From: Clostridiales bacterium Firm_14
Lineage (GTDB): Bacteria > Bacillota > Clostridia > Saccharofermentanales > Saccharofermentanaceae
DNA length: 64,000 nt
Assembly: GCA_001604135.1 (NCBI GenBank)
Contig: LVAT01000006.1
Span: 124,001-188,000, forward strand
Direction of reading: 5' to 3'
The notes beneath the pieces are model-generated. The model did no database searches. It saw nothing but the letters and a program-made list of their open reading frames with translations, and was not told the origin of the DNA. The position numbers and the translations under genes were made by a program. Positions 7,562 through 26,553 of this stretch are shown in pieces. The first letter of the stretch is position 1; each line of letters begins with the position of its first letter.

Positions 7562-7824
7562 ATGACGAAGAAAGCCGCAGAGATTCGGTCAATACAGAGA
7601 AGTGCTATTTGCTGAGAGGCACGTGACGATATTTGCAACAGCTATCCCTTCTGAGCCGGCATTCCGAAAAGGATCTTCCCTAGTAGACAGTGCCCGTGAT
7701 GCTGCGTTAATGCAAAGGAGTTGTTAGACTTCGTAAGTGGCAAACCAAAGCGTTTGCAAATTGAGTGGTACCGCGGATTTATATTCGTCTCAATGTCCAA
7801 GTAGGATGTTGGGGCTTTTTTTTT
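7562..7824 (+). ncRNA. T-box riboswitch leader with terminator
   Basis: The T-box proper GAGTGGTACCGCG is at 7763-7775. It is followed by a terminator: GTCTCAATGTCC (7787-7798) pairs over all 12 positions, counting G-U pairs, with GGATGTTGGGGC (7804-7815), then nine T (7816-7824). Upstream, AGAGA and the apical TTGCTGAGAG between GTGC and GGCAC look like the Stem I distal region, and CTTCTGAG (7650-7655 end) like the segment after the specifier loop. TGGT in the bulge calls for a tRNA with discriminator A, which argues against Ser, Gly or Cys. The specifier is uncertain: ATC (Ile, 7644-7646) fits the spacing best; GCT (Ala, 7641-7643) is an alternative. It controls the acyl-CoA synthetase gene 50 bp downstream. 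Confidence 0.88.
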
Positions 7825-7874
7825 GCCCCGGCAGGGAAAAGACAAGACAGATTGACAGAAAAGGAGAAAAAGTT

Positions 7875-10220
7875 ATGTCAACAGCAAACAACAACGTTGA
7901 GCTAAGACTCGCAGAAGTTGCGGACAGAGTTCACGGTCTGAGACTCGACATGGGTCTGACACCTGAGGAAGTTGCCTCTAAGCTTGATATTTCTACTGAA
8001 GAATATCTTAAGTTTGAAGAAGGCACCCAGGACTTCAACTTTACTTTCATTTATAAATTCGCTAACCTCGCAGGCGTTGAGATCTCTGACATCATGGAAG
8101 GTTCATCCCCTTCCCTTAAGGAATATGCAGTAACGAGAAACGGCCAGGGCAGCCCCATCACAAGACGCACAGGCTATAAGTACCAGCGTCTTGCATCCAG
8201 ATTTAAGAACAAGCTCTGCGAGCCTTTCCGTGTAGTAGTTCCTTATTCCGAAGAGGCTTTGAATCCTCCTTATCACCTCGTTTCACATAACTATCAGGAA
8301 ATGAACATCGTCGTTAAGGGTACTCTTAAGGTAATCATCGGTGATTCCTCCGAAGTGCTCCACGAAGGTGATTCCATCTACTTCGATTCAACACAGCCTC
8401 ACGGCGAGTTCGCATTGGGCGGCGAGGACTGCGTATTCTATGCGATCATCTTAAACCCTGAGGCATGGGGCAAGGGCGAGAACTACACCACGCCTTACAA
8501 TTCAGAAGAGATGCGTACAGACAACGTTACAAACGTTGATGCAGCAAACCTTGAAGATGCTGTTTACACACACTATCTCAACGGCATCCTTGACGAGAAC
8601 GGCACATTGGTCGATGTCGACGTAAACGTTCCCGCATGCAAGAAGTTCAACTTCGCATTCGACTGCGTTGATGCTATCGCCGACAAGAATCCCGACAAGC
8701 TCGCTATGCTCTGGGTCGCAAAGGACTGCGTAACCGAGAAGAGATTCACCTTTGCAGACATCAAGAAGTATTCCAACATGACCGCCAACTACTTCAAGTC
8801 TTTGGGCATCGGCAAGGGCGACAAGGTCGTTCTCGTTCTTAAGCGCCACTATCAGTTCTGGTTCGCCATGATGGGCCTGGAGAAGCTCGGCGCCGTAGCT
8901 ATCCCTGCTACACACCTTCTCCGTGACCACGACTACGAATACCGTTTCAACGCTGCAGGCGTTAAGGCAGTATTCTGCACAGCAGATGACGATGCTGCAG
9001 ATGAAGCAGAGAAGGCAGCAAAAGCATGCGGAGTAGAGACACTCATCCTCTGCAACGGTTCAAGACCCGGATGGCACGACTTCAACGAGGAGTTCAAGAA
9101 CTGCTCCGACGTATTCGAGCGTCCCGCTGATTATGCATGCGGCTACGATCCGATGGTAATGTTCTTTACTTCCGGCACATCGGGCTATCCTAAGATGGCT
9201 CTGCACTCATACATGTATGCGATCGGTCACATCCCGACAGCCAAGTACTGGCAGAACGTCGATCCTAACGGTCTCCACTTCTCCATCTCTGATACAGGCT
9301 GGGGTAAGGCACTCTGGGGCAAGCTCTACGGCCAGTGGCTTTGCGAAGCACCTGTCTTCACATTCGACTTCGACCGCTTCAAGGCAGAAGAGATCCTTCC
9401 CATGTTCAAAAAGTACAACATCACTACATTCTGCGCACCTCCTACGATGTTCAGATTCTTTATCAAGGAAGACCTCTCCAAGTACGATCTGTCTTCACTC
9501 AAGTATGCCGTTACAGCCGGTGAAGCTCTGAACCCTGAGGTTTTCAACAAGTTCATGGAAGCTACCGGAATCAGGCTTATGGAAGGCTTCGGCCAGACCG
9601 AGACAACTCTCGTTATCGCCAACCTCGTTGGTTCGAAGATCAAGCTCGGTTCCATGGGTAAGCCCAATCCGCTCTACGACGTTAAGATCCTTGATCCCGA
9701 CGGCAACGTATGCAAGCCCGGTGAGACAGGCGAGATCTGCATCAATACACAGAACTACCATCCGAAGGGACTCTTCCTCCAGTACTACCTCGCACCTGAA
9801 CTTACAAACGATGCATGGCACGACGGCTGGTATCACACAGGTGATACCGCATGGATGGATGAAGACGGATACATCTCATATGTCGGACGTACGGACGATG
9901 TCATCAAGTCTTCCGGTTACCGTATCGGACCCTTCGAGATCGAGAACGTCATCATGGAGCTTCCTTATGTACTCGAGTGTGCTGTTACGGGTGCTCCCGA
10001 TCCGCAGGGCGTAAGAGGCATCGTCGTAAAGGCTACCATCACGCTCGTTAAGGGAACTGAGGGTACTGAAGAACTCAAGAAAGAGATCCAGCACTACGTT
10101 AAGGAGAAGACTGCTCCTTACAAGTATCCCCGTATAGTTGAATTCGTTGATGAGCTTCCTAAGACATTCAACGGCAAGATCATGAGAAAGGCTATCAGAG
10201 CTGCTGAAGAGCAGAAGTGA
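7875..10220 (+). CDS. XRE helix-turn-helix / cupin / acyl-CoA synthetase fusion
   Basis: 781 residues. I start at ATG 7875 (SD AAGGAGAAAAA); the open frame upstream runs through the T-box and is not coding. Residues 10-65 are an XRE-type helix-turn-helix, 110-200 a cupin (HEGDSIYFDSTQPHG), and 255-780 an AMP-forming acyl-CoA synthetase: phosphate loop TSGTSGYPK at 432-440, SDTGWGK, EGFGQTET, HTGDTAWMDEDGY, GRTDDVIKSSGYRIGPFEIE, and catalytic Lys768 in NGKIMRK. SDTGWGKALWG is typical of the medium-chain/short acyl group of these enzymes. The reaction would be acid + ATP + CoA to acyl-CoA. T-box control ties it to the shortage of one amino acid. The likely substrate (a branched-chain or aromatic short acid) is inference. 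Confidence 0.93.
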   Translation: MSTANNNVELRLAEVADRVHGLRLDMGLTPEEVASKLDISTEEYLKFEEGTQDFNFTFIYKFANLAGVEISDIMEGSSPSLKEYAVTRNGQGSPITRRTGYKYQRLASRFKNKLCEPFRVVVPYSEEALNPPYHLVSHNYQEMNIVVKGTLKVIIGDSSEVLHEGDSIYFDSTQPHGEFALGGEDCVFYAIILNPEAWGKGENYTTPYNSEEMRTDNVTNVDAANLEDAVYTHYLNGILDENGTLVDVDVNVPACKKFNFAFDCVDAIADKNPDKLAMLWVAKDCVTEKRFTFADIKKYSNMTANYFKSLGIGKGDKVVLVLKRHYQFWFAMMGLEKLGAVAIPATHLLRDHDYEYRFNAAGVKAVFCTADDDAADEAEKAAKACGVETLILCNGSRPGWHDFNEEFKNCSDVFERPADYACGYDPMVMFFTSGTSGYPKMALHSYMYAIGHIPTAKYWQNVDPNGLHFSISDTGWGKALWGKLYGQWLCEAPVFTFDFDRFKAEEILPMFKKYNITTFCAPPTMFRFFIKEDLSKYDLSSLKYAVTAGEALNPEVFNKFMEATGIRLMEGFGQTETTLVIANLVGSKIKLGSMGKPNPLYDVKILDPDGNVCKPGETGEICINTQNYHPKGLFLQYYLAPELTNDAWHDGWYHTGDTAWMDEDGYISYVGRTDDVIKSSGYRIGPFEIENVIMELPYVLECAVTGAPDPQGVRGIVVKATITLVKGTEGTEELKKEIQHYVKEKTAPYKYPRIVEFVDELPKTFNGKIMRKAIRAAEEQK

Positions 10221-10232
10221 TCAGAGAAGCCT

Positions 10233-10964
10233 TTAAGAAGCTTTTAACCAGAGCGGCTCTATCGCAGAGCCGCTTTTTTTCTGCCCGGGAACGACCCTTA
10301 TATCAAAGCGCTTATCCCTTACAAAGGGCCAGAGGCAGTCATAAGCCTCCTTGGGATCTTTGAATTCCGGCATCGGGAAATCAGCTATATCGAGGAGCAT
10401 GTTCTGCCCGGCATGGCGCTCCAGGAGCAGATGATGCCTCTTGTCGTAAATAATGAGATTATCGATGTCGCGGCGCTTGAGGACCGGCTTCCTGATTATC
10501 GGAAGCACTGAATTCCTCGGGTTTATGACAATGCACGAAGCCTCTTCGCCGATATAAAAATCCAGTTCCTGCAATATCGACTGGGCCTCCCTGTAGAGGT
10601 CCCTTATCGCCATCTGTATGCCGCTCATGAGCTCGCTCGAATAATCCTCTGCGACCCTCGCGCCATACTTCAGGGAACAGAAGATCATCTTATAGAGATT
10701 GATCTCCAGACCTGATGCATCCGTCAGAAAATAGTCGGACACCATCTGCTGGACTTCGGCACTGCTCCTGACTGATATCGTGGAATAAAGATACTGCGCA
10801 TCCTTAAGATTCGTCGCGATGTTCAAGGCAATGTCCGGCCTGTCCTCCACCCTCCGGTCAGTTATCGAAGCGGGCACCCTGCCCGACCTTAAAGCAGCTA
10901 GAACTGCGCAAAGATAGCCTTCGAAAGTGCCGTCATACGTGTATCTTATGCCCTGGTCTGCCAT
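10233..10964 (-). CDS. Protein with similarity to the TIGR03915/DUF4130 probable DNA metabolism family
   Basis: 243 residues with SD GGAGGAG. The N-terminal segment YTYDGTFEGYLCAVLAAL and the later TDASGLEINLYKMIF and LYREAQSILQELDFYIGEE recall the TIGR03915 proteins that partner a radical-SAM/uracil-DNA-glycosylase-like protein. The C-terminal part (after about 165) does not show the motifs I remember for DUF4130, and no radical-SAM partner is next to it. The assignment is therefore from N-terminal pattern only. Its 3-prime end carries the terminator of the convergent synthetase gene inside the coding sequence. Confidence 0.55.
   Translation of the reverse strand: MADQGIRYTYDGTFEGYLCAVLAALRSGRVPASITDRRVEDRPDIALNIATNLKDAQYLYSTISVRSSAEVQQMVSDYFLTDASGLEINLYKMIFCSLKYGARVAEDYSSELMSGIQMAIRDLYREAQSILQELDFYIGEEASCIVINPRNSVLPIIRKPVLKRRDIDNLIIYDKRHHLLLERHAGQNMLLDIADFPMPEFKDPKEAYDCLWPFVRDKRFDIRVVPGQKKSGSAIEPLWLKAS
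10252..10280 (+). terminator. Rho-independent terminator of the synthetase gene
   Basis: AGCGGCTCT (10252-10260) and AGAGCCGCT (10266-10274) pair perfectly across a 5-nt loop, followed by TTTTTT. It lies within the last codons of the convergent gene ending at 10233. Confidence 0.93.
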
Positions 10965-11065
10965 GCTTTACTCCTCCTGTCCGTCTTTAAGTGCCGTCAT
11001 TCTATCACCGCGAACATATGTTTGTAAATACCGGTTTCAGCATGTGTACCATTAATGGTTCCCAA

Positions 11066-11098
11066 AACAAAAAGAGACTGGAATTAACCAGTCTCTTT
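11066..11098 (-). terminator. Rho-independent terminator
   Basis: AAAGAGACTGG (11071-11081) and CCAGTCTCTTT (11088-11098) pair perfectly; on the minus strand the hairpin is followed by TTTTTGTTTTG. It ends the lipoprotein transcript from 11742. Confidence 0.88.
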
Positions 11099-11121
11099 AG
11101 TGTTTTGCCTTATCGTTAAGG

Positions 11122-11192
11122 CTTGATGATTATTTCGAACTGCTTCCGCACAAGCGTAGCGCGGAGGACTCGCAGTGAGAAAAATCATCAAG
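11122..11192 (-). other. Long nested hairpin after the lipoprotein gene
   Basis: Four stems nest in register: CTTGATGATT/AATCATCAAG (11122-11131 with 11183-11192), TTTC/GAAA (11133-11136 with 11179-11182), CTGC/GCAG (11140-11143 with 11172-11175) and TCCGC/GCGGA (11145-11149 with 11161-11165). The outer arm contains the stop codon of the lipoprotein gene. A separate terminator lies 25 bp further on, so this is not the terminator. It could be a 3-prime-end stabilising structure or a small palindromic element. Confidence 0.6.
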
Positions 11193-11742
11193 GCTTCGGG
11201 AATCCGAGCTCCTTAAGGAATGCGGAGATCTTTTCCTTGTCACGCTTGCTGCCTTCGATGGAATATACTTCGATGTAAACGTTCTGGTTTACATAGACGC
11301 CGCCGAAGATCTCGCTGTCCTTGGAAAGATACTTTGTACCGACCCTTGAACTCTTTTCGATGTCGCCGTTAAAAGTGATCGATCCGCTCTTCTTGCTGAT
11401 GGACATGGAATGTGAACCTTCAAAATCCTTATCCTTTACGGAATCGTTGAATGAATCGTATGCATCCTCGAAATAATTCATTGCATCGTCAGCCTTCTTA
11501 AATCTGACGTATGTGTATGTGTTGTCTCCGTCATTTGCAACAATGATGTACTCAGCCTTATCACCGTTGAAAGTTGTGTTCTTCATGTGCTGAGTCTCAT
11601 CCTCGTCGATGCTTACGGCATTATCCAATGCATCGAAGAAAACATCCTCATCATCAATAAGCTTGACCCGTGCGCATCCTGCAAAAGAAAAAATAGTTGC
11701 GCATGCGAGCAAAGAAGCGATAACAGCACGCATCTTCTTCAT
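11188..11742 (-). CDS. Putative lipoprotein, unknown function
   Basis: 184 residues from the ATG at 11742, which follows CAGGAGGGAACG; the open frame extends 21 codons further but without SD or signal. A lipoprotein signal peptide ends in FAGC, then the mature part has no membrane segment. The body alternates short strands and charged helices (TYTYVRFKKADDAMNYFEDAYDS), and it ends with a helix KEKISAFLKELGF. I do not recognise the family. It is flanked by a terminator and by the tyrS terminator, so it is probably transcribed alone. Confidence 0.75.
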   Translation of the reverse strand: MKKMRAVIASLLACATIFSFAGCARVKLIDDEDVFFDALDNAVSIDEDETQHMKNTTFNGDKAEYIIVANDGDNTYTYVRFKKADDAMNYFEDAYDSFNDSVKDKDFEGSHSMSISKKSGSITFNGDIEKSSRVGTKYLSKDSEIFGGVYVNQNVYIEVYSIEGSKRDKEKISAFLKELGFPKP

Positions 11743-11841
11743 AATCGTTCCCTCCTGGCACCTAAAAGTTAAACTTATTTTACCGCTCGAAATAAGCCTT
11801 TTCAACGAATTAAGACCGACAAACTTAACTAAATCTGCAAT

Positions 11842-11875
11842 TAAAAAATCCCCGACATCAACATATGCCGGGGAC
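11842..11875 (-). terminator. Rho-independent terminator of the tyrS operon
   Basis: GTCCCCGGCA and the TGTCGGGGAT arm on the minus strand form a GC-rich stem followed by TTTTTTA. It lies 26 bp after the tyrS stop. Confidence 0.85.
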
Positions 11876-11900
11876 TTACTGATCTGCTTAAAAGGACTTA

Positions 11901-13133
11901 TCAGGCAAGCTTCAATCTGTGGTATGTCTTCTTGCCCTTACGTACGATCGCTTCGCCGCTTGCATCGAAGTCAGATTCCTTGAGTTCATAGAACTGATCC
12001 TCAACAACTGTATCGTTGAGGTATACGCCCTTCTGCTGGATCATTCTTCTTGCTTCGCCCTTGGACTTCATGAGGCCTGCCTTAACGAGCGCATCAGCGA
12101 TCTGCATGCCGGCATTGAGCTCATCGTTAGTGATCTCAGTTGTCTTCATGTCTTCAGATCTTCCGGCGTTCTCGAAAATATCCTCAGCTGTCTTTTTCGC
12201 GATCTCAGCAGCTTCTTCGCCGTGAATGATCTTTGTAACTTCGTAAGCAAGTCTCTTCTTTGCCTCATTGATTGCTGCATCAGTGAGCTTTGCATACTCG
12301 TTGATCTCGTCCATTTCGAGGAATGTCAAAAGCTTCATGCACTTGATGACATCAGCGTCATCGACGTTTCTCCAGTACTGGTAGAAGTCGTAGACAGGGG
12401 TCTTCTCAGGATCGAGCCATACTGCGCCCTTTGCTGTCTTACCCATCTTCTTGCCTTCGCTGTTTGTAAGGAGAGTGAATGTAAGGCCGTAAACGGACTC
12501 GCCCTTCTTACGGCGTACGAGCTCCATGCCTGCGAGGATGTTAGACCACTGGTCGTCGCCGCCGAACTCCAGGTCACAGCCGTATTTCTCGTGGAGGTAA
12601 TAGAAATCGTAGCCCTGCATGAGCATATAGTTGAATTCGAGGAATGAGAGTCCCTTTTCGAGACGCTGCTTATAGCACTCTGCGGTAAGCATCTTGTTTA
12701 CTGAGAAATGAGCACCTACTTCTCTTAAGAACTCAATGTAGTTAAGGTTTCTGAGCCAGTCAGCATTGTTTACGATGAGCGCCTTGCCGTCAGAAAAATC
12801 AACGACCTTGCCCATCTGCTTCTTGAAGCACTCAACGTTGTGGTCGATCGTCTCAACCGTCATCATCTGACGCATGTCGGTACGGCCGGAAGGGTCGCCG
12901 ATCATACCGGTGCCGCCGCCCATGAGAGCGATCGGACGGTGGCCGGCCTTCTGCATGTGGCTCATTACCATCATCTGAACGAAGTGGCCTACGTGAAGAG
13001 AGTCAGCCGTCGGGTCAAAACCGATGTAGAAAGATACACCGGGCTTGCTCAGAAGCTCATAGATCTCATCTCTGTGTGTTGCCTGGGAGAAGTAGCCTCT
13101 CTCTTCAAGCACGTCAAATACATTTCTGTACAT
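11901..13133 (-). CDS. tyrS: Tyrosyl-tRNA synthetase
   Basis: 410 residues from ATG 13133 (SD GGAGG six bases upstream; the TTG four codons earlier overlaps the SD). Class I motifs are clear: HVGH in ADSLHVGHF and KMGKT as the KMSKS loop. [12 protein letters not shown] and [14 protein letters not shown] are typical of TyrRS. The C-terminal S4-like RNA-binding domain ([21 protein letters not shown]) is present. It charges tRNA-Tyr in the cytoplasm. No T-box is seen upstream; the gene follows trxB by 31 bp and shares its operon. Confidence 0.98.
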
Positions 13134-13164
13134 ATATTCCTCCAACTAATTGTTATCTGTTTTA

Positions 13165-14076
13165 TCAGACGCCGAGTTTGATGTAGTCGATCGCTGCAAG
13201 TGCCGCAATTGCGCCGTCAGCGCAAGCCGTCGTAAGCTGTCTTACCTTCTTGACTCTCGCGTCGCCTGCTGCGAAGATGCCTTCAACATTGGTCTTGCAG
13301 TTCTCGCCTGCTTCGATATAGCCGCCCTGCAAAGTTACAAGATCCTTAAAGTCAGCCGTCTTGGGCTCCTGTCCGATCGCAACGAAAAGTCCGTCAACGT
13401 CGATCTGCTTCTTGGAACCGTCTGCCTTGCTTACGAGTTCAACGCCTGTAAGCTTGGGTTCACCCAAAAGGCTCTCGATCGTATAAGGCGTAACGATCTC
13501 AAGGTTAGGAAGCGCTTTTGCCGCCTTTACGAGAACGTCATCAGCCCTGAATTCGTTTCTGCGGTGTATAAGATATACCTTGTCTACGATACCTGCAAGA
13601 TATATGGCATCTTCAACTGCCGTATTTCCGCCGCCGTTGACTGCAACAGTCTTGCCCTTATAGAACGCTCCGTCGCATGTGGCGCAGTAGGAAATGCCCT
13701 TGCCTAAGAGATCATCTTCTCTTGCAATGCCTAAGTGACGGTTGGAAGCGCCGACTGCAAGGATCACTGCCTTTGCGGTATTCTTCTTGCCGGAATCAAG
13801 TGTGACTTCAAAGCCTTCAGCAGTCTTCTCGACAGCTGCAACGCGGTCGAACTCGAGCACTGCGCCAAGGTTAATTGCCTGGTTATAAAGGTCGTTGGCA
13901 AAATCAAAGCCGGAGATCTTGGCGATCGCCGGATAGTTCTCGATCTCGGGAGTGTTGACGATCTGTCCGCCGTACATCTCGCCCTCATAAATGACGGTAT
14001 CCATTCCTGCGCGTCTGGCATAGATAGCTGCCGAAAGTCCTGCGGGGCCTGCGCCTACGATGATGATGTCTGCCAT
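13165..14076 (-). CDS. trxB: Thioredoxin-disulfide reductase
   Basis: 303 residues, SD AAAGGAAGG. FAD-binding GAGPAG at 8-13, the redox pair C131-A-T-C134 in a YCATCDG context, the NADPH-binding GGGNTAVEDA and the C-terminal FAAGDARVKKVRQLTTACADG are the complete TrxB signature. It reduces thioredoxin with NADPH. The GGGNTA-x-E and following HRRNEFRADD (two Arg of an HRR motif) favour NADPH over ferredoxin as donor. The gene begins one base after the thioesterase gene ends. Confidence 0.97.
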   Translation of the reverse strand: MADIIIVGAGPAGLSAAIYARRAGMDTVIYEGEMYGGQIVNTPEIENYPAIAKISGFDFANDLYNQAINLGAVLEFDRVAAVEKTAEGFEVTLDSGKKNTAKAVILAVGASNRHLGIAREDDLLGKGISYCATCDGAFYKGKTVAVNGGGNTAVEDAIYLAGIVDKVYLIHRRNEFRADDVLVKAAKALPNLEIVTPYTIESLLGEPKLTGVELVSKADGSKKQIDVDGLFVAIGQEPKTADFKDLVTLQGGYIEAGENCKTNVEGIFAAGDARVKKVRQLTTACADGAIAALAAIDYIKLGV

Positions 14077-14077
14077 A

Positions 14078-14527
14078 TCAGCCTTCCTTTCCGTTGACTA
14101 ATTCGTCAAGCTTTGCGTGCGCTTCCGGGTTCGTTCTCTGCATTGAGATGACCTTGCCTTCACGGTTGATGAAGCAATGCTCTGAAGTTCCCATGCACCT
14201 TACCTGCTCCGTCTCCTTATCAAAGATCGTATATTTAATATCGAATCTTACTCCGGTATATCTTGTGATCTCAGCCCTTATAACGACCGTATCACAGTAC
14301 TTCGCCATAGTCTTATACTTTGCCGTAAGTCCTACGACGGGGCTTATGATGCCCATCTCTTCCATTCCCTTATAGCCTAATCCGATGTCCTCGAAAAGCT
14401 TCGTCCTCGCCTCTTCATACCACCTTACGTAGTTCGAATGATGGGTAACTCCCATCTGGTCCGTCTCATAGTACTGTACAAGATGCTCGCAATCCGTAAC
14501 TGCTGCCATTTTCCTAAATATCTCCAT
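14078..14527 (-). CDS. Acyl-CoA thioesterase, YbgC/FcbC hotdog family
   Basis: 149 residues. The N-terminal YETDQMGVTHHSNYVRWYEEAR is the 4-hydroxybenzoyl-CoA thioesterase-type motif (the Asp in TDQMG is the catalytic acid), followed by the hotdog strands VVIRAEI and VRFDIKYTIFD. These enzymes hydrolyse short acyl-CoA or acyl-ACP thioesters. No clear SD precedes the first ATG; a second ATG at codon 7 (14509) follows AGGAAA and may be the real start. It heads the operon with trxB and tyrS. Confidence 0.92.
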   Translation of the reverse strand: MEIFRKMAAVTDCEHLVQYYETDQMGVTHHSNYVRWYEEARTKLFEDIGLGYKGMEEMGIISPVVGLTAKYKTMAKYCDTVVIRAEITRYTGVRFDIKYTIFDKETEQVRCMGTSEHCFINREGKVISMQRTNPEAHAKLDELVNGKEG

Positions 14528-14605
14528 TCATAAATAGATTGCTTTATTTTATTTAGAGTAAGGATAACTGTCAAATAAGTAACTGTTATTCCTTTTGAAA
14601 ACATA

Positions 14606-14619
14606 TATAATTGCTTCTA
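14606..14619 (+). promoter_or_regulatory. -10 box placed for a leaderless start
   Basis: TATAAT (14606-14611) ends seven bases before the ATG at 14619, so transcription would begin at or next to the start codon. No SD precedes the ATG, and the -35 region (CTGTTA at 17-bp spacing) is poor. Confidence 0.4.
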
Positions 14620-15278
14620 TGGATACCGAGCTCTTCATCTTGATAACAGACATCATCGGCACTGTGGCTTTCGCAGTGTCAGGCGCCATGGCCGGAATCA
14701 GGAAGAAGATGGACATCTTCGGCGTCAATATCCTGGCGCTCCTTACCGCTACGGGTGGCGGCATCATAAGAGACCTCGTAACAGGCTCCACACCTCCCAC
14801 GGCCTTTAAGAATCCTTTTTTCGTAATCATCGCAGCGATCGCCGCGAACATCACATTCATATTCGTCTGGTGGCAGCACAAGAATAAGAAGAACGTCTCC
14901 GAGAAGACCCGCGCGATCTACGACAAGATCTTCTTCTGGTTCGACACAGTGGGGCTTGCAGCTTTCACCGCAGACGGCGTCCACACAGGACTTCTGGGCA
15001 CTCACGCAAACAATGCTTTCCTCGTTATCTTCCTTGGCGTCGTAACAGGTGTCGGCGGCGGCGTATTAAGAGATGTCCTCTCACTCGAGATGCCTTATAT
15101 CTTCGTAAAGCACATCTACGCATGCGCTTCCATTGTCGGCGCCGCAGCAGTCTATATCGTCTTCAACTTCACGGGTTCACCCGAAATCGCAATGCTCGTG
15201 GGCTTCTTCTTCGTCTGCGCGATCAGATTCTGCGCCGCCCACTACGGCTGGAACCTGCCGAAGGCATATAAGGACTGA
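14619..15278 (+). CDS. TRIC-type / UPF0126 cation channel family protein
   Basis: 219 residues from ATG 14619 (the frame opens 8 codons earlier with TTG, which overlaps a TATAAT box). Seven hydrophobic segments are arranged as two similar halves, each with a GGG-x2-RD motif: TATGGGIIRDLVTG and GVGGGVLRDVLSLE. This repeat is the mark of the bacterial trimeric intracellular cation channel (YicG/UPF0126) family, which forms K+-permeable pores. It is transcribed divergently from the thioesterase operon. Confidence 0.92.
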   Translation: MDTELFILITDIIGTVAFAVSGAMAGIRKKMDIFGVNILALLTATGGGIIRDLVTGSTPPTAFKNPFFVIIAAIAANITFIFVWWQHKNKKNVSEKTRAIYDKIFFWFDTVGLAAFTADGVHTGLLGTHANNAFLVIFLGVVTGVGGGVLRDVLSLEMPYIFVKHIYACASIVGAAAVYIVFNFTGSPEIAMLVGFFFVCAIRFCAAHYGWNLPKAYKD

Positions 15279-15340
15279 AAGAACGGATCAGCTTCCTGAT
15301 TTATCACCTGGGACGGAAATAAGAAACAAAAACAATACAC

Positions 15341-15365
15341 AAAAAAACCGCCCCACAAGGGAGCG
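15341..15365 (-). terminator. Rho-independent terminator of the FkbH-ACP-MBOAT-ThrH operon
   Basis: On the minus strand CCGCTCC pairs with GGGGCGG (one G-U) across CTTGT, followed by seven T. It sits 27 bp after the thrH stop. Confidence 0.88.
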
Positions 15366-15391
15366 GCCGTCAAAAAGCGTTTTATACGATC

Positions 15392-16000
15392 TCAGTTAGA
15401 ATCCGGTACAGCCTTAATAGCGGCGAGCAATTCAGAGAACTCCTCAAATGCGGGGATGTCCGGGTTGTCGGCGATGATCTTCTCTGTGCTCTTGAAAAGG
15501 AATCCGGCCTTGGATGCCTTGATCATGGCGAGGTCGTTGTAGGAGTCACCGGAAGCGATCGTGTCAAAGCCGATTGACTGAAGAGCCTTAACCGTGGACA
15601 GCTTGGAATTCTCAATCCTCATCTTGAAGTCTTCGATCATGCCGTCTTCGCCGACGATCAGTGAGTTGCAGAAGAGTGCCGGATAGCCGAGCTTTGCCAT
15701 CAGAGGCATGGCGAACTGCGTGAAGGTATCGCTAATGATGATGACCTGCATATCCTTACGGAGCTCGTCCAAAAATTCCTTTGCGCCCGGGAGCGGATCG
15801 ATCGAAGCGATAACTTCCTGGATCTCCTTGAGGCCCAAGCCGTGCTCTCTTAAGATGCCGAGTCTCCAGTGCATGAGTTTATCGTAATCGGGCTCATCCC
15901 TGGTCGTTCTGGTAAGCTCCGGGATACCGGTCTTCTTTGAGAACTCGATCCAGATCTCAGGTACCAGAACGCCTTCCATATCAAGACAAACAATATTCAT
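15392..16000 (-). CDS. thrH: ThrH-type HAD phosphatase (phosphoserine phosphatase / homoserine phosphotransferase)
   Basis: 202 residues from ATG 16000, with SD AAGGGGG; the longer frame upstream overlaps the MBOAT gene and lacks an SD. HAD motif I is the unusual CLDMEGVLVPE of ThrH (Asp-Met-Glu), with motif II ISDTF, and GDSYNDLAMI as motif IV. ThrH from Pseudomonas dephosphorylates phosphoserine and can pass the phosphate to homoserine. It lies 13 bp after the MBOAT gene and before the operon terminator, so it is probably the last gene of the acylation operon. A role on a phosphorylated three-carbon acid there is inference. Confidence 0.93.
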   Translation of the reverse strand: MNIVCLDMEGVLVPEIWIEFSKKTGIPELTRTTRDEPDYDKLMHWRLGILREHGLGLKEIQEVIASIDPLPGAKEFLDELRKDMQVIIISDTFTQFAMPLMAKLGYPALFCNSLIVGEDGMIEDFKMRIENSKLSTVKALQSIGFDTIASGDSYNDLAMIKASKAGFLFKSTEKIIADNPDIPAFEEFSELLAAIKAVPDSN

Positions 16001-16013
16001 TAAGTTTTCCCCC

Positions 16014-17558
16014 TTAGATTCTTGCGTATATGAATGAACCGGAATCATAGCCTAAGCCGTACATTCCGAATAATAACGTAGCTACAAAGAGCACCATGAA
16101 TGCTGCCCACAGCAAAACGATGCCCTTGCTCCTTAAAAAAGCGATGGCTGACTTCGGCGCTTCGTCTTCGCCCGGGCGGTACTTGTAAGCGTCGACTGCG
16201 AAAACAAGAAGAACACCAACGGCCATTACGATGAGATTTGCGAGGTCCAGGCCGGAAGCGGAGAAGTTTGCCCAGTCAAGAGGCACGTCGCTCTTGCGGA
16301 AGATCGCCGCATACATGTCGACCGCATCCATGACGGTTGCTGATCTGAAGAATACGAAGCCCGTAAGCATGAGGATAAACGTGCGGACAGACTGGAAGAT
16401 CCTGAAATAAAGCTTGTCAGCACCGATCTTGGGTCTGATCTTCTTGAACGCCGGTTCGAAGATCATGCCGAGCACGATGTAGATAAAGTGCAGGATGCCT
16501 GAACCGATAACGTAATTCCAGAGGCCGCCGTGCCAGTAACCGACTGCAAACCAGAGGATGAACAGAGCGATGTAAGTAGGAACCTTCTTGCCGTTCTTCT
16601 TGCCGAACTTAGCCTTTGACCAGTCGCCGAGCTTGATGAGCGGAGCAGACTTTAAGATAGGATACATGAGGTAGTCGCGGAGCCATGCACCGAGCGTGAT
16701 GTGCCACCTTCTCCAGTATTCCTTTACGGTCTTCGAGAAGAACGGGCAGTTGAAGTTCTCAGGAAGTTCGATTCCGAACATGTGGGATACGCCGATGACG
16801 ACTTCCATGCATCCGGAGAAGTCAGTGTACAGCTGGATCGCAAAGAAGAAAACGCCGAGAGGAACATACCAGCCGGTATATGTCTGATGGTCTGCATAGA
16901 TCATTTTGACGACCATTGCGGCACGCTCGGCGATAACGAGTTTCTTAAAAAAGCCCCATGCTACCCTTACTGCTCCGTCAAAGATGCGGGAGAGATCGAA
17001 TTTGACCTCCTTAGCCTTCTCGAACTGCTCGGAAAGATTTGCATAGGTGTTCATAGGACCCGACATGAGCTGCGGGAAGTATGTTGAGAACAATAAGACC
17101 TTGAAGAAGTTTTTCTCAGGCGCGATCTTCTCCCATCTGCAGTCGAGAATGTAACCCGTTGTCTGGAGAACGTAGAAAGACATTCCGACAGGGACTGCGT
17201 AGAGGAAGAACTTGTTTGCGCCGTTAACCGCGCCGAAGAGGAGATTTAATCTCTCAGCTGCAAGGCCTATGACGTTATAGTACTTGACCGCACACAGGAG
17301 CGCGATATTGATCACTACGGTAATTATCGCAGCAGCGTTGCGCAGGGCATTGCTTTTCGAAGGGCCTGCAAGAAGACCTCCGAGATAGCAGAGGACAGCC
17401 GATACCAGGACGAACAGCAGTGTGTAGAATCCCAGGAAGGCTGAGAATGCGAGGCTCGCTGCCAATATCACCCAGAAGCGGAAGCTCTTGGGCACGACAT
17501 AGTACAGCAGCAGGGCTGCCGCAACGAAAACCAAAAATAACGAAGATACCAGCGACAT
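16014..17558 (-). CDS. MBOAT-family membrane O-acyltransferase (AlgI/DltB-like)
   Basis: 514 residues, SD AAGGATAA. Eleven or so membrane segments; the cytoplasmic-facing core has DFSGCMEVVIGVSHMFGI, then FFSKTVKEYWRRWHITLG with H286, and the catalytic H343 in VGYWHGGLWNY. This is the DltB/AlgI pattern, in which an acyl group from a carrier protein or other donor is moved across the membrane onto a surface polymer. The gene directly upstream is an acyl carrier protein (9 bp gap), as in dltB-dltC. There is no DltD-like gene beside it. Confidence 0.95.
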   Translation of the reverse strand: MSLVSSLFLVFVAAALLLYYVVPKSFRFWVILAASLAFSAFLGFYTLLFVLVSAVLCYLGGLLAGPSKSNALRNAAAIITVVINIALLCAVKYYNVIGLAAERLNLLFGAVNGANKFFLYAVPVGMSFYVLQTTGYILDCRWEKIAPEKNFFKVLLFSTYFPQLMSGPMNTYANLSEQFEKAKEVKFDLSRIFDGAVRVAWGFFKKLVIAERAAMVVKMIYADHQTYTGWYVPLGVFFFAIQLYTDFSGCMEVVIGVSHMFGIELPENFNCPFFSKTVKEYWRRWHITLGAWLRDYLMYPILKSAPLIKLGDWSKAKFGKKNGKKVPTYIALFILWFAVGYWHGGLWNYVIGSGILHFIYIVLGMIFEPAFKKIRPKIGADKLYFRIFQSVRTFILMLTGFVFFRSATVMDAVDMYAAIFRKSDVPLDWANFSASGLDLANLIVMAVGVLLVFAVDAYKYRPGEDEAPKSAIAFLRSKGIVLLWAAFMVLFVATLLFGMYGLGYDSGSFIYARI

Positions 17559-17567
17559 CCGTTATCC

Positions 17568-17810
17568 TTAGCCTAAGTGAGCGATGATCCTGTCGACCAT
17601 CTCGCCGACGTTCTTAAGGCCTGTGGTCTCGCCCATCGTGAACTTGATGCCAAAGCATCTCTCTACTGCAACGATGAGGTTGATGTGCTCGAGTGAATCC
17701 CAGCCGTCAACGTCAGCTGCAACGGTTGAATCGTTAACCGTGATGTCCTCGTCGTCGAAAACATCCTGGAAAACTTCATTAAGCTTGCCGTAAATCTCTT
17801 CTCTTGTCAT
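17568..17810 (-). CDS. Acyl carrier protein (stand-alone, DltC-like position)
   Basis: 80 residues, SD AAGGAG. The phosphopantetheine site is Ser39 in VDGWDSLEHINLIVAVE, the ACP/PCP signature. Acidic helix I (EIYGKLNEVFQDVFDDEDI) matches the fold. The length equals that of DltC and primary ACPs. It sits between the FkbH-like gene (24 bp) and the MBOAT gene (9 bp), so it is a dedicated carrier rather than the fatty-acid ACP. It must be activated by a phosphopantetheinyl transferase encoded elsewhere. Confidence 0.96.
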   Translation of the reverse strand: MTREEIYGKLNEVFQDVFDDEDITVNDSTVAADVDGWDSLEHINLIVAVERCFGIKFTMGETTGLKNVGEMVDRIIAHLG

Positions 17811-17834
17811 TTCCTTATCTCCTTACAGAAGCGG

Positions 17835-19628
17835 TCAGTTGACCTTGATCGCTACGTTGCCGCTCTTATGCGGCTTGTCGAGGTCGAGCAGCCACTCGGA
17901 AGTGCCGTCTTCCATCTCTCTTATCTTTTCGAAGCCCTGGAGCCCGTAAAAATCCTTGACCATTTTATTCTTTGCGGTCGGTAAATAATAGCCTTTAATT
18001 TTGGTAATATTTCTGGATTTTGCCTCGCTGATCAGCTCATCCATCATTGCAAATTCCATACCGCGCTTTAAGACTCTGCAGCTCATGAGCCACAGGTCGA
18101 TGTGGAAGAACTTGTCTTTTCCGAAGTCTTCCTCGTGTCCGAAAGCGACCGCAACGACACCATTATCGCCGAACTTGTCCTCGAGCCTGCCGTAGAGCGT
18201 GATGTACTTGGGGTCAGTCGCGATCTTCTCGATGTCTGCCTGGCTGCAGCGCTTTGTCGTCAGGTTGAACTGGTTGCTCTTATTTGTGAGCTCAGCGATA
18301 CGCGCCATGTATACGGGCGCGAAAGGCTTGATCTCAGCAGTCATCTCAAGTGACTTCAGGTACTCGTCGTAGTTCGTGAACTGCGCGGAAGCCTTGGCAC
18401 GCTCCATGTTTGCCTTGTACATGCCGCTTCTCTTGATGTCTTCTTCGGAGATTCCGGTAACTTCGAAGAAGCCGTTTGAATCGAGAATGTCGATATACGT
18501 CTCAGGCGCGCCTACCTCAGGGACCGAGATTCCGGGGATCTGATTCTCAACGAGTGCTCTCTCGACCGGGTTGTCGTCAACGAAGACAAAGCTGTCGGCA
18601 CCGATATTGATCTCCTTCGCGGTATTCGCGATATTGATGTCCTTGTTGTCCCAGTTGGCCTTGATGATGAGGAAATCGTCCTGCTTCAAGGTCGAATCGG
18701 GTCTTGCGAGACCTGCCAGAGCGTTCTCCTCGTCGTTCTTCGAAGCGACTGTAAGGAGGATCCCTAAGTCCTTATGTGCCTTTATGTACTGCTGGAACTC
18801 GGTAAAGAGCTCTGATTCTGCGTCCTCGTGGCCGATCTTGATGTTCTCCGGACCGTCGTCGCCGACGATGCCGCCCCAGAGGGTGTTGTCCATATCAAGG
18901 GCAAATGCCTTCTTGTTCTTGCCGTAGACCGCCTTGATGATGTGCGCGAGATTGAACGCGAAATCAGGGATCGCAGAAACGCTTAAAGCGTACTTATATC
19001 TGTACCAGTCACCCGGATCTGCCCACTTCTTGATGCCGTAGACAGCCGAGATGTAGTTGATGTCGTTGATGAAGAAATTCCTGTGGCTCTGTGCATAAGC
19101 GCAGAATCTGTCATTCAGTCTGTTGATGAAGTTAAGCCTGCCGTGGATATTCGTAAAATCGCTGTTGCCGAGGAGCCTGTAGAAGGGCTGCTCGAAGTTA
19201 TTCTGGATGACCGTGCACTTATATCGCTCAGCCAAAGCTCCCCAGATCTGCTCAAATCTTCCCATTGTCTCTTCGATCAGGACGTCGATCTGCTCGGGAG
19301 AATCCGTTACAGCAGGGAATCTTGCGATATTCCTTGTTGTTGTGTGCACGAAAACAAGATCCGGAGCAAATTCGTCCAATTCAGGGTTGCCGAAGACCGC
19401 GTCTTCAAAATACTTGTTATACTCGGACTCAAAGAACTCGGGCCTGATGCCGTAATTTAACAGGAAGAGCTCTAATATCTGCTTGATGTCGCTCGTGGTG
19501 GAACCACCCAAAATAGCGATCTTTTTCTCGACATACTGTATTCCTTCCCTTGCCAGGAGCTCTCTCTTGATCGCCTTTTTCTTGCGCAAGATAAAGTCGG
19601 AATCGTAAGGATATTCAAGCTGTTTCAT
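17835..19628 (-). CDS. FkbH-like protein (HAD-IIIC; SGNH-like N-domain, HAD core, GNAT-like C-domain)
   Basis: 597 residues, SD GGAGG. Residues 35-225 form an SGNH-like domain (LGGSTTSDI at 40-48). The HAD-IIIC core starts with D245-M-D247-NTLWGGIVGDDG and continues with ASKNDEEN (295-302) and VFVDDNPVERALV (348-360). The C-terminal GNAT-like part holds LTNKSNQFNLTTKR (447-460) and LMSCRVLKRGME with Cys517. FkbH proteins take the phosphoglyceryl group of 1,3-bisphosphoglycerate, remove the phosphate and load glyceryl onto an ACP. From memory, many members read CSKN where this one has ASKN, so the loaded unit may differ. The ACP gene follows directly. Confidence 0.92.
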   Translation of the reverse strand: MKQLEYPYDSDFILRKKKAIKRELLAREGIQYVEKKIAILGGSTTSDIKQILELFLLNYGIRPEFFESEYNKYFEDAVFGNPELDEFAPDLVFVHTTTRNIARFPAVTDSPEQIDVLIEETMGRFEQIWGALAERYKCTVIQNNFEQPFYRLLGNSDFTNIHGRLNFINRLNDRFCAYAQSHRNFFINDINYISAVYGIKKWADPGDWYRYKYALSVSAIPDFAFNLAHIIKAVYGKNKKAFALDMDNTLWGGIVGDDGPENIKIGHEDAESELFTEFQQYIKAHKDLGILLTVASKNDEENALAGLARPDSTLKQDDFLIIKANWDNKDINIANTAKEINIGADSFVFVDDNPVERALVENQIPGISVPEVGAPETYIDILDSNGFFEVTGISEEDIKRSGMYKANMERAKASAQFTNYDEYLKSLEMTAEIKPFAPVYMARIAELTNKSNQFNLTTKRCSQADIEKIATDPKYITLYGRLEDKFGDNGVVAVAFGHEEDFGKDKFFHIDLWLMSCRVLKRGMEFAMMDELISEAKSRNITKIKGYYLPTAKNKMVKDFYGLQGFEKIREMEDGTSEWLLDLDKPHKSGNVAIKVN

Positions 19629-19645
19629 CCAAAAGCCTCCACCCG

Positions 19646-19710
19646 GACCTGATGGCTCAGGTCATAATTAAACACCTTATAATATCATTTTTATGCCTGG
19701 AACACCTTAT
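19646..19710 (-). promoter_or_regulatory. Leader hairpin and direct repeats upstream of the FkbH operon
   Basis: GACCTGA-TGGC-TCAGGTC (19646-19663) is a perfect 7-bp dyad just upstream of the SD of the fkbH-like gene. Two exact copies of AACACCTTAT lie at 19671-19680 and 19701-19710, 30 bp apart, about three helical turns. These could be an RNA hairpin and a protein-binding site. No consensus promoter stands out in the remaining sequence up to 19826. Confidence 0.45.
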
Positions 19711-24369: not shown

Positions 24370-25650
24370 TCACTTCTTAAGAGATTTTACATAAGCATAC
24401 GCTGTCTCATATCCCATAAGCTCATAACCCGGTTTGCCTGCAAGAGGGTACTCCACATCAGCAGGTGCCGGTGTGTAATTCTTCGCAAGGATCACTACGG
24501 TGTTTGCCAGATCTTCATTGAATACTTTGTTGTACTGTTCCTCAGTGATCTCGTGATCCGCTTCGTAGTATTCGAATGTATCGATCTCCTTCGTTTCGGT
24601 GAGCTCAGTCAGGATAATGCGTTTGTAGGAATCGATGAGATTCCAGTTGTAATTGTATATTTCTGTCCTGTATGTGAACTTTTCAGCGGTGCCGCCTGCG
24701 TGAGTGACAATGATCCTTTCAGGTGTCTTATACATCAGGAAATAACCGCCGTCTGCAGCCATGTAGATGATGTTGGGAACCTCGATGACCTTTACGGCTT
24801 CGCCGGCGTACTCGTTATATGTGTAAACATAGAGAGTGCTCATGTAGGCAGGTTCAACGCCGTCACTTGCCAGGAATAAGAGCTCCGGCAGACCGTCTTC
24901 GTTGATATCGAAAATGCCGACAGGATTGTAATTGTATCCTTCCTCTACTTGCTTAATGGCAGTTTTATTTTCCTCCAACAACTTGAGATATGCATCTATT
25001 GCTTTGCCGTAACTGTCAGCAAAAGCCGTTGTTGCCCCGGTTGGATCCGGATCACCGTAAGGCGCCGTGTAGTCAGTATCTACAGGCACTGTCGGCCACT
25101 CTTTGCTTTCGAGATTCGGCCAGACTTCGGTAAATGCGAGGAGCTCAGCAAGATATTTGATCTCGGAGATCTTCCATTCGCCGTCCACCTTCTTGAATTC
25201 AAGCCCGCCCTTAACGGATTTGAGGTCATCGCTCTTCCTGATCGCTTTTATGAGATCATCAGAGCTCTCGCTGGATCCTTCGAACAAAGGCTTCCAGTTA
25301 ACGATCGAATAATCAAAATCGATCGTTGCCTTATCGCCGTCGATGTGGATATTTCTGCCGTTGGCATTCAATTCGATCGTAGATGCGGTCGCCCTATAAA
25401 CATCCATGATATAGTCGGCATTGCCGTCGAAAACAAAGCAGGCCTCGATCTCATCATATCCGGAATCTGATTCGTCGAAGACTGTCAGATCCAGGATCTT
25501 TTCTTTGTCCAGCGTCTGGAGCGCTTTGGCGTATTCCTTGATGACGCCGTCAACAACGCCCATCTCTTTGCGCTCGCCGAACAGGTCGCATCCTGCCATG
25601 CCCAGGGCCATGGCAGCGGTCAATAATGTTGCAATTGCTTTCCTGATCAT
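24370..25650 (-). CDS. Paralogous lipoprotein: NTF2-like domain plus calcium-loop-type C-terminal domain
   Basis: 426 residues from ATG 25650 (AAGGAG at proper spacing; an ATG two codons earlier lies too close). Lipobox GMAGC. Residues 35-190 resemble an NTF2-like/DUF4878-type fold (ALQTLDKEKILDLTVFDE, then a GEWKISEI strand). After a linker, residues 220-425 carry a second domain with the Asp-rich loop FDINEDGLPELLFLASD, shared with the lipoproteins at 25680 and 26554. The loop resembles FG-GAP/EF-hand calcium sites. The function is unknown; a surface or periplasm-facing binding role is likely. It follows the next paralogue by 29 bp. Confidence 0.8.
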   Translation of the reverse strand: MIRKAIATLLTAAMALGMAGCDLFGERKEMGVVDGVIKEYAKALQTLDKEKILDLTVFDESDSGYDEIEACFVFDGNADYIMDVYRATASTIELNANGRNIHIDGDKATIDFDYSIVNWKPLFEGSSESSDDLIKAIRKSDDLKSVKGGLEFKKVDGEWKISEIKYLAELLAFTEVWPNLESKEWPTVPVDTDYTAPYGDPDPTGATTAFADSYGKAIDAYLKLLEENKTAIKQVEEGYNYNPVGIFDINEDGLPELLFLASDGVEPAYMSTLYVYTYNEYAGEAVKVIEVPNIIYMAADGGYFLMYKTPERIIVTHAGGTAEKFTYRTEIYNYNWNLIDSYKRIILTELTETKEIDTFEYYEADHEITEEQYNKVFNEDLANTVVILAKNYTPAPADVEYPLAGKPGYELMGYETAYAYVKSLKK

Positions 25651-25679
25651 GTTCATTCTCCTTCCCCAAACAGATCTCT

Positions 25680-26444
25680 TTATGAGAGTTTTATCAAATA
25701 CGAGAGCATGCTCTCATAGTTCATCGTCTTTACCGCCGGCTTTGAAAGCAGCGGAGAAGCTTCCTCTTCAGACTTTGCCTGGATGTTGCTCGCGAGGACC
25801 ATTGTCGCCTGGTCGATATGGACCGTAACAAGCTGGTCGTATGCAGTCTGGTCTGCCTGCGAGCCGTTCGTAAAGTATTTATATACGACCCTCTCTGTGG
25901 CGGCATCGTGCGTCTGCACCATCTTGTAACTTCCGTTCTTAAAGAAGTTCATGTCGTAAACGACTGTCTCCGTAACAGGCTCAGTGCCGCCGCTCGTACG
26001 TGTGATGAGGAGAGCAACGGGTGACGTGAAGATCGCATATTCTCCAACGCCGCCTGACAGATACATGATGTTGGGGATTTCTATCTTCTTGACGGCACTG
26101 TCGCTCGCCTTATCGTAAGTAAACACATAGAAAGTCGCAGAATATGCGGTCGAATCCGTTGCTGCGAAAAAGTATAATTCCGGAATGCCGTCGGAGTTTA
26201 TGTCGTGAAGGCCGCATGCCGATACGTTGAAATTCTTCTCGATACCCTGGATAGCATCCTTGTTGACCTTCAGCAATTCCTTATAGACACCAACGGCCTT
26301 AACGCCGTCTTCGTTAAGAGCGATCGTGCTCTCGGTCACCTTCGTATATATGGAGGCGGTAGCTTCCGTGGTATCCGTTTCACAACCTGAAAAAAACAAA
26401 GCCATCGCGGCAATTACAACCAAAGCTGCTGCACGCTTGAACAT
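25680..26444 (-). CDS. Short paralogous lipoprotein with the calcium-loop-type domain only
   Basis: 254 residues, SD AAGGAGGGG, lipobox FFSGC. After a 35-residue linker it consists only of the domain seen in the C-terminal half of its neighbours: an Asp-rich loop HDINSDGIPELYFFAA, then strands with VKKIEIPNIMYLSG and a C-terminal helix near VKTMNYESMLSYL. It lacks the NTF2-like first domain, so it is a truncated or domain-reduced paralogue. It starts after the terminator of the 26554 gene and continues into the 24370 gene. Confidence 0.8.
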   Translation of the reverse strand: MFKRAAALVVIAAMALFFSGCETDTTEATASIYTKVTESTIALNEDGVKAVGVYKELLKVNKDAIQGIEKNFNVSACGLHDINSDGIPELYFFAATDSTAYSATFYVFTYDKASDSAVKKIEIPNIMYLSGGVGEYAIFTSPVALLITRTSGGTEPVTETVVYDMNFFKNGSYKMVQTHDAATERVVYKYFTNGSQADQTAYDQLVTVHIDQATMVLASNIQAKSEEEASPLLSKPAVKTMNYESMLSYLIKLS

Positions 26445-26470
26445 GACGCGCCCCTCCTTCTCATTCCCCT

Positions 26471-26505
26471 AAAAAAGTGGTTGCCGGAATCCTCCCGACA
26501 ACCAC
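26471..26505 (-). terminator. Rho-independent terminator
   Basis: On the minus strand GTGGTTGTCGG and CCGGCAACCAC form an 11-bp stem (one G-U) followed by TTTTTT. It separates the 26554 gene from the 25680-24370 pair. Confidence 0.92.
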
Positions 26506-26553
26506 ATTTTATAACTAATGATCTTTTACACAAATACTTTGCGGACTATAAGA

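Follow-up and report, generated by a model that had tools for sequence, protein, structure and literature searches.

A stretch of 64,000 nucleotides from the genome of Clostridiales bacterium Firm_14, a gut-type member of the Saccharofermentanaceae (contig LVAT01000006.1, positions 124,001 to 188,000; referred to here as the window), contains a compact set of four minus-strand genes encoding an FkbH-like protein, a stand-alone acyl carrier protein (ACP), a membrane-bound O-acyltransferase (MBOAT) of the DltB type and a ThrH-type phosphatase. The genes lie in that order, where a preliminary description of this DNA had put them, are separated by intergenic gaps of 24, 9 and 13 bp, and likely share one transcript. 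Their gene content bears out the further remark that the operon includes neither an adenylating enzyme nor DltD, and there is no tailoring gene inside it. The features are as follows, with positions counted from the first nucleotide of the window.

17835..19628, minus strand: FkbH-like loader, 597 amino acids (profile matches, residue alignment, structure model)
18078..18080, minus strand: codon of FkbH Cys517 (in SCRVLKR), candidate acyl-thioester cysteine by its putative role; Cys in 108 of 108 sequences
17568..17810, minus strand: stand-alone ACP with Ser39, 80 amino acids (PP-binding profile)
16014..17558, minus strand: DltB-type MBOAT with His286, His343 and a C-terminal FIYARI that includes Tyr511, 514 amino acids (profiles)
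16026..16028, minus strand: codon of Tyr511, proposed acyl-carrying tyrosine of the MBOAT shuttle motif; relaxed motif in 77 of 79 relatives
15392..16000, minus strand: co-oriented ThrH of the phosphoserine phosphatase family, probably a passenger, 202 amino acids (NF010109)
15346..15368, minus strand: terminator-like hairpin and T run 3′ of the operon (hairpin scan)

The ThrH open reading frame has a possible alternative start at 16048. The terminator noted earlier after the operon corresponds to the hairpin at 15368-15346, though the scan is by itself weak proof and near chance expectation, with 10 terminator-like sites over 8 kb compared with 7.3 expected.

The first protein is a member of the FkbH family by its match to TIGR01686 (275 bits; cut-off 146.65), and it also exceeds the cut-offs of the HAD-IIIC model (63.9; cut-off 35.75) and of PF21211 (43.8; cut-off 27). 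Its sole significant match by sequence among solved structures is BF1531 (3slr, E 3e-56), with two more at E 0.55. The structure model (predicted local distance difference test 90.4, predicted TM score 0.74) shows three domains: an SGNH/GDSL-like N-terminal domain (best such match 8ik1, Z 16.2, root-mean-square deviation [rmsd] 3.2, 189 residues aligned), a HAD domain resembling MDP-1 (1u7o, Z 16.6, rmsd 2.9, 142 aligned) and a GNAT-like C-terminal domain (4pv6, Z 17.1, rmsd 2.5, 141 aligned), the first two of which are spanned by 3slr (Z 40.8, rmsd 2.4, 373 aligned). In an alignment of 108 FkbH sequences, 104 of them with at least 50% identity and with the duplicate locus L103 (of L043) counted in, residues D245, D247, K329, D351, D352 and C517 never vary, and S296 is conserved in 107 sequences; Ser43 of the N-terminal domain is unconserved, and is Gln in L034 and L035. 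FkbH enzymes form a covalent glyceryl intermediate, and C517, directly after strand 505–515 of the GNAT-like domain, is a candidate for the acyl-carrying cysteine; the open-access literature on a catalytic Cys of FkbH gave nothing useful, and this role is therefore proposed from conservation and fold. The Ala at position 295, which directly precedes the invariant-like residues S296-K297-N298 of the HAD domain, had been taken as a hint of a different acyl unit. The residue is indeed Ala, but the column varies freely (N 42, D 23, A 22, C 13, I 2, V 1 and S 1 among 104 clade members), and Ala295 thus carries no such hint.

The ACP matches the PP-binding profile (22.4; cut-off 20.8), and the Ser39 proposed for it occupies a column that is Ser in all 99 relatives' ACPs. 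The MBOAT matches PF03062 (41; cut-off 27) and scores far below the cut-off of the DltB equivalog TIGR04091 (136.6; cut-off 375). A profile of 17 MBOATs searched against the PDB at E≤0.01 nonetheless retrieves DltB only (6bug, 6e-41; 8jem, 9e-41), and the sequences that surround His286 and His343 line up with both His motifs of that protein. The histidines of DltB are named His289 and His336 in a passage of PMC11035591, numbers not mapped onto the window motifs. His343, singled out in the preliminary description, is His in 79 of 79 relatives, and His286 in 78. The protein ends in FIYARI, which resembles the FxYxxF acyl-shuttle motif of PatA and DltX; according to a passage of PMC12148441, PatA acetylates the Tyr of its C-terminal FxYxxF, and DltX bears the same motif. 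A relaxed form of it ends 77 of 79 FkbH-linked MBOATs, and the two exceptions (L107 and L153) may be mis-called or cut. A second MBOAT of the genome (contig C13) was rejected as a partner; it is AlgI-like by eye and has a DHHW-like neighbor.

Four lines of evidence support a placement of FkbH in the position of DltA. First, the FkbH-ACP-MBOAT triad is conserved across Clostridia, as a genome search proposed earlier as a check has now confirmed. Matches to the window FkbH occur in 53 of 115 genomes at the family level and in 54 of 188 at the order level, and the L034 homologue as query gives matches in 44 of 391 genomes of a class sample; of these, 23 reach at least 55% identity, 8 belonging to the genus and 15 to other families. 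Among the 15 clade loci outside the genus (L076-L090), an ACP is within 6 kb in 14, an MBOAT in 14 and an SGNH or DHHW gene in 13, the one locus without ACP and MBOAT (L090) stopping at a contig edge; the chance of such proximity in 14 of 15 is about 1e-22, assuming four MBOAT genes per 2.5 Mb genome. In all, 112 loci were read, of which six with FkbH below 50% identity were excluded from the clade counts (one of them, L091, has an MBOAT); removal of the duplicate L103 left 105 unique loci, and exclusion of 43 near contig ends left 62 with full context. These include an ACP in 58, an MBOAT in 50, both in 49, and an SGNH or DHHW gene in 34, all 34 among the 52 full-context loci outside the ThrH type. 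The record titles of the best 80 of 564 stretches name Saccharofermentans, Butyrivibrio, Eisenbergiella tayi, Acetatifactor and other Lachnospiraceae and Oscillospiraceae, mostly as metagenome-assembled genomes from rumen or gut. Some loci pair FkbH and ACP with a shorter MBOAT and a DHHW protein (profile-tested in L083, by clustering in the others), and such an AlgJ-like cluster protein stands beside FkbH-ACP in L083-L089, L139, L142, L146, L151 and L156, a second type of exporter with the same loader. The family member G099 has, in addition to a surface-type FkbH operon (L036), a different FkbH-ACP-VOC set in a stretch resembling nonribosomal peptide synthetase (NRPS) genes (L037:1-5409).

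Second, the C-terminal shuttle motif described above is nearly constant in FkbH-linked MBOATs. Third, the genome encodes an SGNH protein that is a candidate for the role of DltD. A profile of 12 FkbH-linked SGNH proteins gives one match in its own genome at E≤1, at 38562-39578 of contig C8 (E 9e-66), on another contig than the operon; the gene (L191:1486-2580) encodes 364 amino acids with an N-terminal helix. The earlier remark that DltD is absent thus holds for the operon and probably not for the genome as a whole. The model (predicted local distance difference test 86.7) has a clear SGNH fold. Foldseek ranks DltD (6pfx) second (E 5.8e-5, TM 0.39); by Z, other SGNH proteins are best (8a2n, 12.8) and DltD (7dxm, Z 10.9, rmsd 4.3, 225 aligned) and PatB (7tjb, Z 10.9, rmsd 4.3, 175 aligned) rank below them, which leaves the subfamily less certain than the fold. 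Pfam gives only a GDSL match below cut-off, and a single PDB match by sequence (E 0.033) is taken as chance. Residues D283, D287 and H294 are invariant in 22 aligned rows. Among 48 FkbH-linked SGNH proteins the nucleophile motif pattern is of the Ser type in 37, the Cys type in one and unmatched in 10. The sole Cys type is that of L140, an operon with the order FkbH-ACP-VOC-MBOAT-SGNH, and it is 43% identical to the C8 protein; the next-best FkbH-linked SGNH protein has 34% identity. The SGNH-type proteins of the genus (L191, L176-L182, L184-L187) and that of L140 have GDC(D/E) at block I, with Cys for the expected Ser. Similar surface proteins stand in a row around the C8 gene (L192:3109-6838 and 10384-16363), one of which passes a transglutaminase core model and has an Ig-like match below cut-off, the others being judged by eye.

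Fourth, within the genus FkbH is coupled to particular forms of the MBOAT and the SGNH protein and alternates with a DltA-like ligase. FkbH is present in 51 of 85 genomes. Class A MBOATs and class A SGNH proteins, defined by identity thresholds (53% and 54%, respectively) that were picked after the tables were seen, are each present in 48 of the 51 FkbH-positive compared with 2 of the 34 FkbH-negative genomes; the two negative genomes with class A genes (G009 and G018) have the MBOAT near or at contig starts, and FkbH may be missing from the assembly. The DltA-like ligase clade has the reverse distribution, with matches in 6 of 51 FkbH-positive and 30 of 34 FkbH-negative genomes, and there is no match to it in the Firm_14 genome at E 1e-60, a search confined to this one clade of adenylating enzymes. 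Because SGNH matches in FkbH-negative genomes reach 53% identity, the split was checked by a tree of 45 class A rows (two pairs from the same genome, G012 and G082) and 15 class B rows, the class B proteins of other genomes not being included; the classes separate with support of 95/99 and in 100% of 200 bootstrap trees, the bootstrap being not fully settled. Five genomes in this tree (G009, G010, G028, G057 and G062) carry one protein of each class.

The eleven ligase loci that were read (L176-L182 and L184-L187), nine from FkbH-negative genomes and two from genomes with both, hold the ligase, a carrier of 75–98 amino acids (not called in L178), an MBOAT and an SGNH gene together, and a racemase-like gene precedes the ligase in seven. 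In L176 the ligase falls just short of the amino-acid adenylation domain model (317.2; cut-off 317.4) and stays below that of DltA (274; cut-off 476), whereas the racemase passes TIGR00035; the other genes of these loci are named by eye or by custom profiles. Their MBOATs end in FIYNQF, or FIYTQF in L187, and these operons of FkbH-lacking sister species have the appearance of a Dlt-like system with a fused shuttle motif. A purF-like gene stands before the trio in three ligase loci (L178, L180 and L181), and in the Firm_14 genome, L230, L231 and L242 the order is purF-like gene, one or more Ig/transglutaminase-like genes, two GT2 genes, SGNH gene and lipoprotein-like gene; for those genomes the gene order suggests one common locus from which the trio is missing. 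In an MBOAT tree of 68 rows, made by a quick method with a midpoint root and no bootstrap, the window MBOAT and 37 of the 47 that are linked to FkbH in other lineages form a group separate from the ligase-linked MBOATs of the genus (SH-aLRT 99), among which that of L189 falls apart from the other 11. These comparisons suggest that the MBOAT came with FkbH and that the SGNH protein belongs to a resident family. On the simplest reading, FkbH, ACP and MBOAT were acquired together and took a copy of the resident SGNH gene into service.

ThrH (301.5 against NF010109; cut-off 133) had been counted as part of the acylation system, a role that is weakened by its distribution. Of the 85 genomes of the genus, 73 have a match to it, a single one each except for two in G018; these include FkbH-negative genomes, where it is encoded at another place with 76–84% identity. 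As a functional component of the operon it is thus unlikely, and it is probably a housekeeping gene that rides as a passenger behind the MBOAT in this genus, which it follows in all 18 ThrH-type loci read (17 unique).

We consider it likely that the operon encodes the donor cassette of an envelope acylation system of the MBOAT-SGNH type, with a carrier-protein donor that is loaded by FkbH. By analogy with the FkbH family, the enzyme would accept an acyl phosphate of the 1,3-bisphosphoglycerate type, its HAD domain would strip the phosphate, and the GNAT-like domain would hand the glyceryl group by way of Cys517 to the phosphopantetheine on Ser39 of the ACP; passages of PMC7489565 and PMC8949500 describe 1,3-bisphosphoglycerate as the source from which FkbH enzymes or domains load glyceryl. 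As DltB/DltX and PatA suggest, the MBOAT would then take glyceryl from the cytoplasmic ACP and place it on Tyr511 of its own C-terminal tail at the outer face, that tyrosine being the presumptive acyl carrier. Finally, the unlinked SGNH protein would act as the transferase, taking glyceryl from Tyr511 and esterifying an envelope polymer as the putative acceptor; it is assigned this step from its co-occurrence and the one linked homologue (L140), with its chemistry predicted. A glyceryl unit, that is, glycerate from sugar breakdown, is plausible by the same analogy. In FkbH-lacking sisters a similar job would be done by the DltA-like ligase, in many cases accompanied by a racemase, together with a different carrier, a different MBOAT and an SGNH paralogue, and against these ligase-based sets FkbH-ACP-MBOAT looks like an alternative donor cassette in a resident surface-modifying system. 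The proposal of a Dlt-like acylation loaded by FkbH therefore stands in its core, on the four lines of evidence above, and loses two of its details, Ala295 and ThrH.

Several observations weigh against this interpretation. First, as to the parts themselves, the shuttle motif closes with Ile, not Phe, in this genus, and the SGNH candidate is not linked to the operon and has Cys (GDC, C65) where SGNH enzymes have the catalytic Ser. Second, the associations have exceptions: in 12 of the 62 full-context loci neither the 4 kb upstream nor the 6 kb downstream holds an MBOAT on the same strand, G071 and G031 have FkbH without class A SGNH, G017, G024 and G023 have it without class A MBOAT, the six FkbH-positive genomes with the ligase show that exclusion is not strict, and in the MBOAT tree the FkbH group leaves out 10 of the 47 FkbH-linked sequences. 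Third, FkbH and MBOAT distances outside the genus correlate weakly (rho 0.26 over 47 loci), and co-divergence was set aside as support. Fourth, the co-occurrence counts are uncorrected for phylogeny, and a single cassette exchange could explain most of them; Fisher values computed from the counts take no account of common descent and are given no weight here. Finally, the steady place of ThrH behind the MBOAT could mean a link to serine or 3-phosphoglycerate metabolism.

Among alternative explanations, it is conceivable, though unlikely, that the same machinery transfers another small 2-hydroxyacyl group, such as a lactyl, seryl-like or tailored three-carbon unit, instead of plain glyceryl. 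VOC, MaoC, SDR and transketolase genes are present in 9, 13, 8 and 6, respectively, of the 52 full-context loci outside the ThrH type, and in L038-L042, from the genus, a VOC protein separates the ACP from the MBOAT; these genes suggest modification of the ACP-bound unit, for example from glyceryl to lactyl, so the clade need not always deliver glyceryl, a further caution for the interpretation above. The absence of a tailoring gene from the window operon and the 1,3-bisphosphoglycerate donor described for FkbH speak for the plain unit here. Genes of the VOC, MaoC, SDR, aldo-keto-reductase-like and split transketolase kinds are seen beside FkbH-ACP-MBOAT in L038-L042, L108, L116, L126, L127 and L134.

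It is improbable that the product is a small molecule or lipid acylated directly by the MBOAT, with the SGNH protein unrelated. Polyketide and peptide pathways are the setting in which FkbH is best known, and in a suomilide cluster an FkbH domain is accompanied by an MBOAT that is proposed, in a passage of PMC13122637, to acylate a sugar. Against this stand the SGNH-tied shuttle motif of the MBOATs, the 34 of 52 loci that have a linked SGNH or DHHW gene, the tracking of FkbH by the unlinked SGNH protein through the genus, and the lack of polyketide synthase (PKS) or NRPS among the ten window proteins scanned with profiles. Very improbable is a purely phosphatase or accessory role of FkbH with the ACP loaded by an unlinked adenylating enzyme. 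An AMP-forming synthetase about 5 kb from the operon speaks for it, but resembles acyl-CoA and acetate-CoA synthetases (below their cut-offs) and was rejected as the loader; the search for other adenylating enzymes covered the DltA-like clade, which has no match in the genome at E 1e-60 and is nearly exclusive with FkbH. That synthetase-like protein (7737-10220, plus strand) has an N-terminal part that resembles a helix-turn-helix plus cupin by eye.

The operon is flanked on the plus strand by a glycine-transporter-family protein (PF03458) and a Na/H exchanger, and the flanks are made up of transporters and further housekeeping-type genes. Three neighboring lipoprotein-like genes, alike by eye, are located at 24370-27870 on the minus strand.

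A comparison with known systems indicates that the proposed pathway works like Dlt (DltA, DltC, DltB, DltX and DltD), yet is no member of it by ligase and DltB criteria, and is best regarded as MBOAT-SGNH acylation in the wide sense. It shares with Dlt a carrier-protein donor, the His motifs of a DltB-type MBOAT, an acyl-shuttle hexapeptide, and, as a candidate partner, an SGNH protein whose model matches DltD among others. It differs in having FkbH as loader where Dlt uses an ATP-dependent ligase, in the fusion of the shuttle motif to the MBOAT rather than its location on a separate DltX, in the unlinked, Cys-bearing SGNH protein, in an MBOAT below the DltB equivalog cut-off, and in a unit that is probably neutral. 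With PatA/PatB, AlgI and other MBOAT-SGNH O-acetylation systems it has in common an MBOAT with a C-terminal FxYxxF-like motif and a candidate SGNH partner, but these, in passages of PMC12148441, use acyl-CoA and operate without a DltC-like carrier protein, whereas here ACP and FkbH would supply the group. The FkbH/ACP glyceryl-ACP modules of tetronate, methoxymalonyl and NRPS pathways likewise combine FkbH with a carrier protein; here there is no PKS or NRPS partner, the FabH-like, acyltransferase and dehydratase genes of the tetronate glycerate-utilization operon are not beside FkbH and ACP, the partners are the MBOAT and ThrH, and the group would reach the MBOAT. In Campylobacter, the FkbH-domain gene cj1302 may be linked to acylated pseudaminic acid. 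The flagellar glycan locus that contains it (PMC7099621) places an FkbH domain in a glycan context, and the passage concerned mentions no MBOAT. A search of the open-access literature, with subscription papers and preprints outside its range, found no paper that joins FkbH to envelope acylation.

On a broader scale, the chances seem about even that this is a widespread second form of carrier-driven envelope acylation in Clostridia, in which a glycolytic acyl phosphate enters through FkbH without adenylation and passes by way of ACP and MBOAT tail to an SGNH protein, with clades tailoring the unit (VOC, MaoC and SDR) and one genus having swapped the whole donor cassette for an aminoacyl one while keeping its resident SGNH protein. 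As outlined in a passage of PMC12148441, the acyl groups for MBOAT-SGNH envelope acylation come either from acyl-CoA or, in the case of Dlt, from a carrier charged by a ligase. Loading of the carrier by FkbH would add a third source, one that is coupled to the flux through glycolysis and could provide units absent from acyl-CoA pools. With a cassette swap of this kind, the surface would shift from charged amino-acyl to neutral hydroxy-acyl esters within a single genus. The genus has sister species with FkbH, the ligase or both, in which the chemistry of the surface esters and their effect on surface charge can be compared directly.

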